From Woeseia sp. (GTDB lineage Bacteria > Pseudomonadota > Gammaproteobacteria > Steroidobacterales > Woeseiaceae): a stretch of DNA of 64,000 nt. Location: positions 2,959,305-3,023,304 of the forward strand of contig JAJFKW010000001.1 of assembly GCA_021773015.1 (NCBI GenBank). The letters run 5' to 3'. Within the stretch, counting starts at the first letter, position 1; the number at the start of each line of letters is the position of its first letter. This document shows, piece after piece, positions 28,922 to 36,447 of the stretch. Made by a program: the position numbers and the translations under genes. The notes under the pieces are model-generated. The model did no database searches. It was given only the letters and a program-made list of their open reading frames with translations, and was not told where the DNA came from.

Positions 28922-30301
28922 ATGAATACTGCTGAAGCCAGGCTCGCTCACGGGCCTGTGGGACGACATTTGGTCAATATGACCGCGCCCGTACTGCTCG
29001 GCATATTCATGATGATGCTTCAGGGATTCATAGACGCGTGGTTTATTGGTCGTGTTGGGGTGAGCGAACTTGCGGCGTTAAGTTTCGCATTTCCAGTTCT
29101 GATGGTGGTTTCCAGTGTCGCAATTGGGCTCGGTGCGGGTACTTCTTCGGTTGTCGCGCGGGCGCTAGGTGCGAACAATCATCGCAGAGCGCGGCGTCTG
29201 GCTACCGATAGCTTGCTACTAACGTTTGGAATTACCGCCGTTATCTGTGCTGTTGGTGTATTCACAATCGAGCCTCTGTTTCGATTGCTTGGTGCCACCG
29301 ATGAGATCATTGCGCTTCTAATCAGCTACATGACGATCTTGTACATTGGTGTGCCTTTTGTCGTCGTCGGAATGGTCGGCATGGCGAGCATGCGGGCAAC
29401 CGGCGATACACGGCTACCGAGCGCATTGATGATGCTTGCATCGATAATCAATATTGTCTGCGATCCGATACTCATATTCGGCTTTGGACCCGTGCCCGCG
29501 CTAGGGCTCGACGGTGCTGCAATAGCGGCGCTGATTGCTCGCGGTAGTATTTTTCTCGGCATGCTCTATTTGATGCGTACGCGCTTGAGGATGTTGACAT
29601 TCAACAAGCCGAAAATTACCGAGTTGAAAAAGTCTTGGTCGGATATTCTGCACGTCGGGATGCCGGCTGCCGCCACCAATGCGATCATTCCGATAGCGCT
29701 TGGTGTGATTACTGCGATGCTGGCCCAATATGGTCCCGAAGCAGTTGCAGGATTTGGCGTCGCAACCAGAATTGAATCTCTGATGCTTGTTCTGTTTTAT
29801 GCGGTATCTGCAATCATTGGGCCTTTTGTTGGCCAGAATATTTCTGCTGGAAAGTCAGACAGAATTTTTACGGCGCTCAGGCTGTGTAGAACATTTTGCT
29901 TGACCGCTGGGCTGGCGATGGCCGTCTTATTGGCTGCATTTAGCACGGCACTACCGGCGCTATTTAGTGATAGTCCAACGGTGAATGAAGTCGCAACGCT
30001 TTTCCTCTGGATTGCGCCCATTAGTTATGGTGCGTACGGCATAGTGATGGTCATGAATGCGTCGTTTAATGGTATGGGCAAGCCTATGCCGGCGGTCGTG
30101 ATTAGCATGCTGCGAATGGTGGCGATCTATCTGCCCATTGCATTGATCGCGCGTGAATTTTTTGAAGTCGCTGGAATATTCGCCGCCTATGCGATTGCAA
30201 ACATAATTTCAGCGGTGATCGCCTACGCTTGGGCTAAACAATCTGTGCAAGCGCAGTGCGATAAGCATGCACCGCCTGTCTTGGTCACAGAAACGGTGTA
30301 G
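28922..30301 (+). CDS. MATE family efflux transporter (NorM-like branch)
   Basis: A 459-residue inner-membrane antiporter with twelve predicted helices in two MATE repeats. The start MTAPVLLGIFMMMLQGFIDAWFIGRVG carries the MATE entry motif, the repeat linker is KPKITELKKSWSDILHVGMPAAATNAI, and the second half has AVAGFGVATRIESLMLVLFYAVS. MATE pumps exchange cationic drugs or metabolites for Na+ or H+. The gene is on its own on the plus strand and convergent with a second, different MATE gene 25 bp downstream. Confidence 0.93.
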   Translation: MNTAEARLAHGPVGRHLVNMTAPVLLGIFMMMLQGFIDAWFIGRVGVSELAALSFAFPVLMVVSSVAIGLGAGTSSVVARALGANNHRRARRLATDSLLLTFGITAVICAVGVFTIEPLFRLLGATDEIIALLISYMTILYIGVPFVVVGMVGMASMRATGDTRLPSALMMLASIINIVCDPILIFGFGPVPALGLDGAAIAALIARGSIFLGMLYLMRTRLRMLTFNKPKITELKKSWSDILHVGMPAAATNAIIPIALGVITAMLAQYGPEAVAGFGVATRIESLMLVLFYAVSAIIGPFVGQNISAGKSDRIFTALRLCRTFCLTAGLAMAVLLAAFSTALPALFSDSPTVNEVATLFLWIAPISYGAYGIVMVMNASFNGMGKPMPAVVISMLRMVAIYLPIALIAREFFEVAGIFAAYAIANIISAVIAYAWAKQSVQAQCDKHAPPVLVTETV

Positions 30302-30326: not shown

Positions 30327-31595
30327 CTAGATGGTCGGTAGCACGCGTGCTCGATAGTAGTAATGCATGCCGATTCCACGGCTTGCCATGAAAATTGTAA
30401 ATGCGAGCCACAAGCCGTGATTTCCCAGAAACTGCAGGCCATACCACGCCGGCAGAAATACAACGATGGTCGAGAAGATCATTACATTCCGCATGTCTTG
30501 AGCGCGCGTCGCGCCAACAAAGACCCCATCATAAAGATACGACCAAAACGAGACGACCGGTGAAAGAGCGAGCCAGGGCAAATATGTGAGCGTGGTGTTC
30601 CTTACTGCCTCGATATCTGTAAGCAGATAAATTAGCCATCGCCCTCCAAAGTAAAATGCGATTGAGAAACCAACGGCGACCAACAATGACCATCTCAGCG
30701 TGATTTTGACAGACTTGATCAGGGCGTCACGATTTCTCTCCCCGATCGACTTCCCTACTAGTGCCTCTGCGGCATGCGCTAGGCCATCGAGCGCAAACGC
30801 CAGTAGCGTTTGCAAATTCATCAGAATCGCATTCGCGGCGAGTATTAGCCCGCCCTGTCTCGCGCCTTGCGCTGTAATAAACGCGAACGTGAACGTCAAC
30901 GCGATGGTTCGCAATAGCAGGTGACCGTTGACCGCAACAAATGCTCGATACTCATTTATCTGCGTCAGTTTAGATAGAAGCCAACGGCCGTGGAACTTTC
31001 TCAGCTCTCGCGATACGAAATAGAATCCAACAAAGAGACCACAGTACTCGGCGATTACGGATGCGGCTGCAATTCCCTCCACCTTTAATCCCAAACCAAA
31101 CACAAACCAAAAATCGAGGGCGATGTTTATCGCGTTGGTAACGACCACGATTATGAGTGGCACGCGAGCATTTTGCATACCAATAAACCAACCGATCAAC
31201 GCATAGCCACCGAGCGTTGCGGGTGCGCTCCAAATTCTGATACTGAAATACTGTTGCGCGAATTCCTTAATCTCGGCTTCTGGTCCGAGAAGCGCCAAGG
31301 CGGCTCGCCCTATCGGAGCTTGGGCGAGCAGCAAAAGGAGAGAAATTGCCAGAGCGACAATCAACGCTTGGCCAAGCGATTCGCGAATTCCGTCGTAGTC
31401 GCGCGCGCCAAATCGTTGCGCCGCGATTCCGGTCGTGCCCATACGCAAAAAGTTCACGCTGACGTAAATAAAGCCAAATATTGCGGAACCAGTAGCAACC
31501 GCACCGAGATACGCAGCGCTTTCGAGGTGGCCGGTAACACCCGTATCGACCATGCCGAGCAACGGCACCGACACGTTCGAGATGATCATTGGCAA
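30327..31595 (-). CDS. dinF: MATE family efflux transporter (DinF-like branch)
   Basis: An inner-membrane MATE exporter of the DinF type (NVSVPLLGMVDTGVTGHLE, FLRMGTTGIAAQRFGARD, GLAHAAEALVGKSIG). The canonical frame starts at TTG 31595 and gives 422 residues, but codons upstream (RDVWNIAL) clearly continue the similarity to DinF proteins, whose first helix begins there. The open frame reaches back across the end of the preceding dehydrogenase gene, with an ATT at 31649-31647 but no ATG, GTG or TTG. The real start is therefore probably non-canonical or the sequence has an error. It may be co-transcribed with the dehydrogenase gene. Confidence 0.9.
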   Translation of the reverse strand: MPMIISNVSVPLLGMVDTGVTGHLESAAYLGAVATGSAIFGFIYVSVNFLRMGTTGIAAQRFGARDYDGIRESLGQALIVALAISLLLLLAQAPIGRAALALLGPEAEIKEFAQQYFSIRIWSAPATLGGYALIGWFIGMQNARVPLIIVVVTNAINIALDFWFVFGLGLKVEGIAAASVIAEYCGLFVGFYFVSRELRKFHGRWLLSKLTQINEYRAFVAVNGHLLLRTIALTFTFAFITAQGARQGGLILAANAILMNLQTLLAFALDGLAHAAEALVGKSIGERNRDALIKSVKITLRWSLLVAVGFSIAFYFGGRWLIYLLTDIEAVRNTTLTYLPWLALSPVVSFWSYLYDGVFVGATRAQDMRNVMIFSTIVVFLPAWYGLQFLGNHGLWLAFTIFMASRGIGMHYYYRARVLPTI

Positions 31596-35293: not shown

Positions 35294-35325
35294 CGTTGAT
35301 ATCTACCTCCATTTGCTTGAGAGTA

Positions 35326-35355
35326 ATTTTAGCACTCTCCGCGTTAGAGTGCTAA
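35326..35355 (-). promoter_or_regulatory. Putative sigma-70 promoter of rpoH
   Basis: On the minus strand, a -35 box TTAGCA (35355-35350; four of six to TTGACA) and a -10 box TAAAAT (35331-35326; five of six to TATAAT) are 18 bp apart. Transcription would start near 35318, leaving a 5' leader of about 25 bases before the ATG. Both hexamers overlap the CIRCE arms, so repressor and polymerase would compete. Confidence 0.5.
35329..35355. promoter_or_regulatory. CIRCE operator (HrcA-binding inverted repeat) upstream of rpoH
   Basis: A perfect match to the CIRCE consensus: TTAGCACTC (35329-35337), nine-base spacer, GAGTGCTAA (35347-35355), centred about 49 bp upstream of the rpoH ATG. CIRCE is the site of HrcA, a repressor whose folding depends on GroEL, so heat relieves it. 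It normally sits before groESL or dnaK. Its presence here predicts transcriptional repression of rpoH by HrcA. No hrcA gene is in the window. Confidence 0.93.
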
Positions 35356-35481
35356 CAACTAACGATAGTTCCGTTGGGAATTGAGAATAAAGTCACAGAA
35401 AAACAGTAGCTTACCAAACTGGCTAGCGGTCGCATTATGTCTAATTATGGAAATTATCGGGTGCGCAGTGCTTCTGCAACG

Positions 35482-36447
35482 CTATTTCGGCTCGATTCTT
35501 CGCATATGTCGAGCTGCGGCTATCCATGACCCAACCAATCCAAGCAGTACGCCCACGCCAACAATCGTTGCGCTTTCGGAGATACTGAGTGATATGGCCT
35601 GAAACCCTGAATTGTAAAGCCCAGCTAGCCTGGCAATCGGTTCTTTTAGTGCGAACAATCCGTAGCCAACCAAGGCCAATGCGAGCAATCCACCACCCAA
35701 GCCGTACCAAAGACCGGAATATAGGAATGGACGACGGACGAACGCATTGCTGGCGCCAATTAATTTGGTGACCTCAATCTCCTCACGCCGATTCTGGATA
35801 TCAAGGCGAATGGTATTGCCGATGATAACGATTATGGCCGCACCCAAAAGTGCGGCCCCCATCGCAATCGCGCGTTGCAGCGTCTCAAGGATTGCGTGAA
35901 AACGCTGAACCCACTCGGTATCGATTTGCACCAAGTCGGTCTCTGGCAGATTCGCCAACTCTTCGTGCAGCAGCCGCATGGTCTCTTCAGTATTGCTGCC
36001 GCTCGGCCGGACCACCAACGTATGCGGTAACGGATTAGATTCAAGATGATCTAGAGCGCTGCCAAATCCAGACTGTGCTTTAAATTCCGCTAATCCCTGT
36101 TCGGCAGACACTAAGGTTACGCTTGCCACATCGGCGCGTTGTTCAATGATCGATGCCAAACTTCTTGCGTTATCCACTGTCACGTCATTGTTGAGATATG
36201 CCGAAAAATCTAAAGCAGATTCCCAGCTTCCGCTGATTGAATCCGCGTTCTTGATGAGGAGATGCATTGCCGCGGGTAACGCAAGTGTTATTGCGATCAC
36301 CAAAATTGTCATTAGACTGGCAAATGGTTGACGAGCAAGTCGCCCCAGCGCGGCAATGCAATTGCTTGCATGGCGCGTGGCCCAGGTTCGCAGCGGGCCG
36401 GATGGACGAATCTGCGTTAATGCAGCGGCCGACGGCTTATTTACCAC
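35482..36447 (-). CDS. ftsX: Cell division protein FtsX
   Basis: A 321-residue inner-membrane permease-like protein with a cytoplasmic N-terminus (about 45 residues), a first helix (SLMTILVIAITLALPAAMHLL), a periplasmic domain (about 75-195), and three C-terminal helices (AMGAALLGAAIIVIIGN; WYGLGGGLLALALVGYGLF; SATIVGVGVLLGLVGSWIA). The NRREEIEVTKLIGASNAFVRRPFLYSG block is the FtsX hallmark. With FtsE it controls amidase activation at the septum. It overlaps ftsE by 7 bp. Confidence 0.95.
   Translation of the reverse strand: MVNKPSAAALTQIRPSGPLRTWATRHASNCIAALGRLARQPFASLMTILVIAITLALPAAMHLLIKNADSISGSWESALDFSAYLNNDVTVDNARSLASIIEQRADVASVTLVSAEQGLAEFKAQSGFGSALDHLESNPLPHTLVVRPSGSNTEETMRLLHEELANLPETDLVQIDTEWVQRFHAILETLQRAIAMGAALLGAAIIVIIGNTIRLDIQNRREEIEVTKLIGASNAFVRRPFLYSGLWYGLGGGLLALALVGYGLFALKEPIARLAGLYNSGFQAISLSISESATIVGVGVLLGLVGSWIAAARHMRRIEPK

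Follow-up and report, generated by a model that had tools for sequence, protein, structure and literature searches.

The heat-shock response is generally taught from E. coli, an organism without HrcA in which rpoH is controlled largely after transcription, by a thermosensor in the mRNA and by chaperone/FtsH control of sigma-32. Titration of the repressor HrcA by GroEL is known in Bacillus subtilis and Helicobacter pylori (PMC6032397), and in Agrobacterium tumefaciens groE is under dual control by HrcA and RpoH (cited in PMC11764788). For Geobacter sulfurreducens a perfect CIRCE before rpoH itself, listed at -51, has been on record as a prediction since 2004 (Rodionov et al. 2004, PMC545781, Table 8). 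The rpoH gene of Salmonella is among those with known sigma-E promoters (PMC4577112), and the sigma-E promoter of E. coli has the form GGAACTT at -35 and TCAAA at -10 (PMC2893595). At the rpoH locus of Woeseia sp. described in the present study both kinds of element occur together and, judging from the sequence, we consider it likely that a single HrcA operator overlaps two promoters, one for sigma-E and one of the housekeeping type, with the availability of GroEL gating entry into the sigma-32 regulon.

The features of this locus are collected in Table 1. Within the window (the whole stretch of DNA analysed, 64000 nucleotides in length), the operator is the sole match to the CIRCE form TTAGCACTC-N9-GAGTGCTAA with up to three mismatches, where shuffles gave a mean of 0.02. 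A perfect CIRCE upstream of rpoH had been called by the initial annotation and is upheld in full, as the site has no mismatch and the minus-strand gene downstream is RpoH by TIGR02392. Its placing before the rpoH ATG was also right in location, but the gap is 35 bases and not 36 bp. A chance repeat as the origin of the CIRCE was ruled out by the window shuffles together with the shuffled class upstreams described below. The gene ftsX ends 188 bases before the rpoH ATG, and the ftsX-rpoH order is that of E. coli K-12. No terminator-like site was found on scanning the ftsX-rpoH interval, so that read-through from ftsX could bypass the HrcA gate and may provide an HrcA-independent floor of rpoH transcription. 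An Rfam search of the window returned nothing at gathering thresholds. We also considered that the CIRCE might serve ftsX or a gene in divergent orientation, a reading rejected on account of the site standing before rpoH in every named relative examined (the best 80 of at least 577), at short distances from the start. Elsewhere in the window, two convergent ORFs (28922-30301, plus strand, and 30327-31595, minus strand) have translations that resemble MATE-type transporters.

Table 1. Features in and around the rpoH upstream region, in window coordinates
Feature	Position	Strand	Remarks
rpoH, sigma-32, 288 aa	34427..35293	-	ORF; TIGR02392 394.2 bits (cut-off 323.1); NF005143 414.1 bits
GGAGG, likely ribosome-binding site of rpoH	35306..35310	-	
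Predicted extended sigma-70 -10, TGC-TAAAAT	35326..35334	-	CIRCE right arm and three bases beyond
CIRCE, predicted HrcA operator, TTAGCACTC-TAACGCGGA-GAGTGCTAA	35329..35355	-	0 mismatches; perfect 10-bp inverted arms
Sigma-E-type -10, TCTAA	35344..35348	-	Last two bases of CIRCE left arm and first three of CIRCE spacer
TTAGCA, possible weak sigma-70 -35	35350..35355	-	Inside CIRCE left arm; 18 bases before TAAAAT
Sigma-E-type -35 box, GGAACTA	35366..35372	-	GAAC 11 or 12 bases upstream of CIRCE in most relatives
ftsX	35482..36447	-	TIGR00439 344.8 bits; neighbour upstream of rpoH on the same strand

Of the two promoters predicted at the rpoH CIRCE, the sigma-E-type one is the more telling. On the gene strand it reads GGAACTA-N17-TCTAA and shares the left arm of the CIRCE. 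It is a near match to the sigma-E consensus, with six of the seven bases in a -35 box that ends in A and with a spacer one base longer, and the general pattern before rpoH, GGAAC(T/C)(T/A)-N16/17-TC(T)AA, is as read here the form of a sigma-E promoter. A search of the Woeseia genome for GGAACT-N16/18-TCTAA returned two matches, at rpoH and at one other place, against 1 and 2 for the backward control; as the motif is no commoner than the control, a match alone proves nothing and cannot define a regulon, and the case for the promoter is one of conservation. The initial annotation had placed a housekeeping promoter in the CIRCE arms, with TTAGCA and TAAAAT 18 bases apart. Both hexamers are present (TTAGCA-N18-TAAAAT, 35355 down to 35326), with nine of 12 consensus bases and a TG preceding the -10, but the single occurrence in the region compares with a shuffle mean of 0.4 and is therefore only weak evidence for a -35/-10 pair; the extended -10, TGC-TAAAAT, fits better than the -35 reading. 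The account in the initial annotation leaves out the second predicted promoter, of the sigma-E type (GGAACTA, TCTAA). From the usual distance of six to seven bases past the -10, transcription would be expected to start at about 35337 from the sigma-E and at about 35319 from the sigma-70 promoter, and transcripts from these predicted starts would be without the full CIRCE hairpin.

Conservation was analysed in 80 named-relative loci, which were fetched by RpoH similarity and not by CIRCE and are the best 80 of at least 577, as holds for all of the counts in this paragraph. The nearest named relatives among the matches listed were mostly Woeseiaceae MAGs. A CIRCE precedes rpoH in all 80, with no mismatch in 58, one in 18 and two in four; the left arm is TTAGCACTC in every case, and the right arm varies. 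In 75 of the 80 usable rows (81 rows with the window included, minus one with too little upstream sequence) GAAC lies just upstream of the CIRCE, separated from it by 11 bases in 47 rows and by 12 in 28, which gives a sigma-E spacer of 16 or 17; no offset between 0 and 149 other than these had it in more than three rows. Spacer positions 11-12 of the CIRCE are AA in 75 of the 80 relatives, and TANNNT is found at positions 25-30 in 79 of them, by virtue of a T at position 30. Outside the CIRCE, little is conserved save the GGAAC box and this T. The right arm recurrently reads GACTGCTAA, with C at position 21 in 14% of the 81 rows (L004-L083). Two public MAG records, one titled Klebsiella pneumoniae (L054) and the other Janthinobacterium lividum (L043), have an rpoH that is 67-71% identical with that of the window, with a CIRCE before it, and these titles look wrong.

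The genome (4.84 Mb) contains one hrcA, a full-length ORF of 352 aa (PF01628, HrcA, E 3.1e-61, 206.8 bits) followed by an ORF that is grpE-like as read from its translation; the repressor gene on which the initial annotation had relied is thus present. CIRCE sites with up to three mismatches number two in the genome, at rpoH and before groES. The expectation that the usual targets (groESL, dnaK and hrcA itself) would carry the operator was accordingly borne out for groES and failed for hrcA-grpE, upstream of which no CIRCE with up to three mismatches was found; groES and rpoH are the only carriers here. The sequence CTTGACC-N13-TTGCTA precedes hrcA and is only loosely sigma-32-like, and upstream of the groES CIRCE stands CTTGAAT-N13-CCCTAT, which resembles a sigma-32 promoter. 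One rpoE ortholog scored over the cut-off (TIGR02939, 295 bits), with an RseA_N anti-sigma match adjoining (PF03872, 35.8 bits), and its own upstream region contains GAACTT-N16-TCTAT, a predicted sigma-E promoter. Besides RpoE, 27 further, weaker ECF-type sigma matches were detected (E <= 0.001), which is many for a genome of 4.8 Mb.

A wider view was obtained from a class-wide draw of 114 genomes, one per family. Of these, 104 gave an RpoH match with E <= 1e-60, 103 of them scoring above the cut-off, one genome having two copies, which gave 105 upstream regions. A CIRCE with up to three mismatches was found in 74 of the 105 upstreams, and in 74 of the 104 genomes; the remainder had at least five mismatches. 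Among 2100 letter-shuffled rpoH upstreams none reached three or fewer mismatches and four had four. The rpoH CIRCE is no peculiarity of this genome, in view of the 74 genomes and of the older prediction in G. sulfurreducens (PMC545781). Conservation of the site in relatives, which the initial annotation had left to an alignment, is evident both in the named relatives (80 of the best 80 of at least 577) and in the class draw. The genome G030 has two rpoH copies (L136 and L141), one with a CIRCE (one mismatch) and one without (eight mismatches), which would split the control of the two sigma-32 copies. In G008 (L313/L154) an extra GAGTGCTAAAAT just upstream of the rpoH CIRCE resembles a second right arm with -10, a possible tandem operator.

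The class draw bears on the reading that HrcA is the only input, with the CIRCE over a housekeeping promoter and the GGAAC box being a sigma-70 upstream element or belonging to another regulator. GAAC stands 9-12 bases before the rpoH CIRCE in 51 of the 74 cases and at the mirrored downstream position in one of the 74. The box tracks rpoE, which is present in all 51 of its carriers compared with 14 of the 23 other genomes with a CIRCE before rpoH (Fisher 7.4e-6, genomes taken as independent), and likewise the A that stands at CIRCE position 12 and closes the sigma-E -10, found in 48 of the 51 with GAAC compared with nine of the 23 without (Fisher 7.7e-7, genomes again taken as independent). 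It has, moreover, the sigma-E sequence and the sigma-E spacing to TC(T)AA, the same motif stands before rpoE itself (spacer 16) and it matches the E. coli rpoH promoter. We therefore regard control by HrcA only as unlikely, although it would agree with the 23 of 74 CIRCE-bearing rpoH upstreams without the box at 9-12 bases (14 of these genomes having rpoE), with an extended -10 (TANNNT at CIRCE positions 25-30) in 66 of the 74 and with the exact GGAACT...TCTAA being no commoner in the genome than the control. AA at CIRCE positions 11-12 was seen in only 27 of the 74 in the class draw, many rows having TCTCA or TCTTA for TCTAA. In several genomes without GAAC at 9-12 bases (G001, G039, G041, G051 and others), a GAAC..TCNAA pair stands some 20 bases farther upstream, and in these a sigma-E promoter may lie beside the rpoH CIRCE without overlapping it.

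The GGAAC box is specific for rpoH. As controls we used 40 of about 45 non-rpoH CIRCEs among the matches listed, 28 of which precede groES. GAAC 9-12 bases upstream was found at one of these 28 groES CIRCEs, compared with the 51 of 74 at rpoH, and the box as a general part of CIRCEs was rejected on this count. The groES CIRCEs among the matches listed had TANNNT on the right in three of 28 and AA at positions 11-12 in none of 28, and TTGA within 40 bases upstream in all 28, compared with 16 of the 74 rpoH CIRCEs. The differences in GAAC, TANNNT and TTGA suggest that the groES CIRCEs are under a different promoter. Among the matches listed (L196-L235), the groES CIRCEs often have CTTGAC and then CTATTA right before the operator, a common form of groES promoter. 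Ten CIRCEs among the matches listed, for which a weak text pattern gave a loose assignment to hrcA, had GAAC in one and TANNNT in six cases. The last two of the 40 were assigned to no gene; one of them (L205), at a contig end in a genome without an RpoH match, may mark a broken rpoH locus.

As a positive control for the sigma-E form we took 20 rpoE upstreams from class members chosen for having the rpoH composite. GAAC(T/C)-N16-TC was present in 13 of the 20, all with a spacer of 16, compared with 3.9% of letter shuffles, and no such promoter was found in the other seven upstreams scanned. A draw of 150 genomes at phylum level was searched for the exact composite (GAAC, 9-12 bases, TTRGCACTC-N9-GAGTGCTAA, zero mismatches), which was found in three: three of 40 class members and none of 110 others. 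The matches precede rpoH in the Woeseia genome and in G252, and groES in G075; as the pattern was exact, with no mismatch allowed, and the phylum draw is unlike the class draw, these numbers say little about frequency.

The presence of hrcA is informative about a second reading, according to which sigma-E controls rpoH and the CIRCE has been retained mainly as promoter sequence, with little effect of HrcA. In the class draw hrcA was found in 83 of the 114 genomes, and rpoE likewise in 83 (E <= 1e-50; 77 over the cut-off). The rpoH CIRCE follows hrcA: the repressor gene is present in 70 of the 74 genomes with a CIRCE before rpoH, compared with six of the 30 without (Fisher 3.9e-14, genomes taken as independent). 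Four genomes thus have a CIRCE-like site before rpoH but no hrcA match, and in six the reverse holds. The four speak for this second reading, and so does the left arm, which is invariant in all of the 80 named relatives, the right arm being variable. Neither promoter, however, needs the full palindrome, since G19-A20-G21 of the right arm and TTAGCA of the left arm lie outside the sigma-E boxes, and the palindrome is nonetheless perfect in 58 of the 80 relatives (best 80 of at least 577). Retention mainly as promoter sequence is thus very unlikely. An RpoH tree was built from 91 of the 105 loci, with 14 loci that bear a CIRCE omitted; on it, independent pairs stood at 3.1 to 0.0 of five for CIRCE with hrcA and at 1.6 to 0.0 of three for GAAC with rpoE, so that neither direction was contradicted by pairs that are too few for significance. 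The tree is poorly resolved (only six of its 88 inner branches are starred, and a pair of long rows meet) and hence provides no dating of the gain or loss of the composite.

The sequence elements at rpoH are thus conserved and specific for this gene, and they co-occur with hrcA and rpoE. From them we infer that HrcA binds at rpoH, that either promoter is used, and that mutual exclusion and titration by GroEL operate there, and the composite operator would work as follows. Free GroEL would keep HrcA active, and HrcA on the CIRCE, covering both the sigma-E -10 and the extended sigma-70 -10, would shut both rpoH promoters, so that a single repressor would close the two. Once unfolded proteins occupy GroEL, HrcA would be released from the CIRCE, upon which sigma-70 polymerase would give basal and sigma-E envelope-stress-driven transcription of rpoH, and sigma-32 would then switch on its own regulon. 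With groESL having its own CIRCE and sigma-32-like promoter, HrcA, rpoH and groESL would make up a coherent feed-forward loop, which the feedback of GroEL on HrcA would close. The serial wiring from HrcA through rpoH to the sigma-32 regulon, as first proposed in the initial annotation, is well supported as a prediction by the presence of hrcA and the conservation of the CIRCE before rpoH. That rpoH is instead controlled mostly after transcription, by an mRNA thermosensor and chaperone/FtsH as in E. coli, with the site only fine-tuning, is highly improbable: read-through from ftsX would leave room for it, but the predicted rpoH 5' mRNA folds no better than shuffles and shows no E. coli-type thermosensor fold (z 0.47, 131 of 200 shuffles at least as good, for one sequence at 37 C), and control at the protein level may coexist with the composite operator.

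If the site works as read, many gammaproteobacteria would have a GroEL-sensing repressor in control of the sigma-32 regulon, and a stretch of 47 bases (35326-35372) would integrate cytoplasmic and envelope folding stress through a fused operator and promoter. We suggest only tentatively that this fusion might be a widespread, perhaps old, gammaproteobacterial AND gate, in which sigma-32 would be raised by envelope stress only under GroEL overload and of which E. coli would have kept the sigma-E half after loss of hrcA. Both the gating of the sigma-E input to rpoH by HrcA and the origin of E. coli-type control by operator loss become testable in this way.

In its parts the arrangement is familiar, as a CIRCE before rpoH is already known as a prediction and a sigma-E promoter before rpoH is known in enterics. 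The composite of the two at rpoH was not found in our searches of the open-access literature, which misses key older work, and a CIRCE before a gammaproteobacterial rpoH may well be in that older literature already. G. sulfurreducens likewise has a perfect CIRCE before rpoH, which is also a sequence prediction; it belongs, however, to another phylum-level group, its hrcA-grpE-dnaK-dnaJ has a CIRCE whereas hrcA-grpE here is without one, and the accessible part of the source mentions no sigma-E promoter at its rpoH, unlike the composite described here (PMC545781). The groESL operators of B. subtilis and H. pylori have the same consensus and overlap the core promoter, and HrcA and GroES are found here too; the target of HrcA in those systems is groESL, whereas here it would be a sigma factor, which would place the repressor above a whole regulon (PMC6032397). 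In A. tumefaciens both branches of the heat response are present in one cell and converge on groE, as here, but HrcA and RpoH both act on groE and, in the accessible text, rpoH is not placed under HrcA (PMC11764788).

A search of the E. coli control genome for hrcA found none. The rpoH upstream region of E. coli K-12, which we fetched and scanned, has GAACTT-N16-TCTGA at -120, the sigma-E promoter named P3, and no CIRCE (best match eight mismatches). The two loci are alike in the GAAC box, in TCTNA and in the ftsX-rpoH order; they differ in the spacer (16 in E. coli compared with 17 here), in the distance of the promoter from the rpoH ATG (120 compared with about 79 bases) and in the CIRCE, which is present here and absent from E. 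coli rpoH. On the tentative AND-gate reading, a loss of hrcA in E. coli, with only the sigma-E half kept, would help to explain the reliance of that organism on translation and protein stability.
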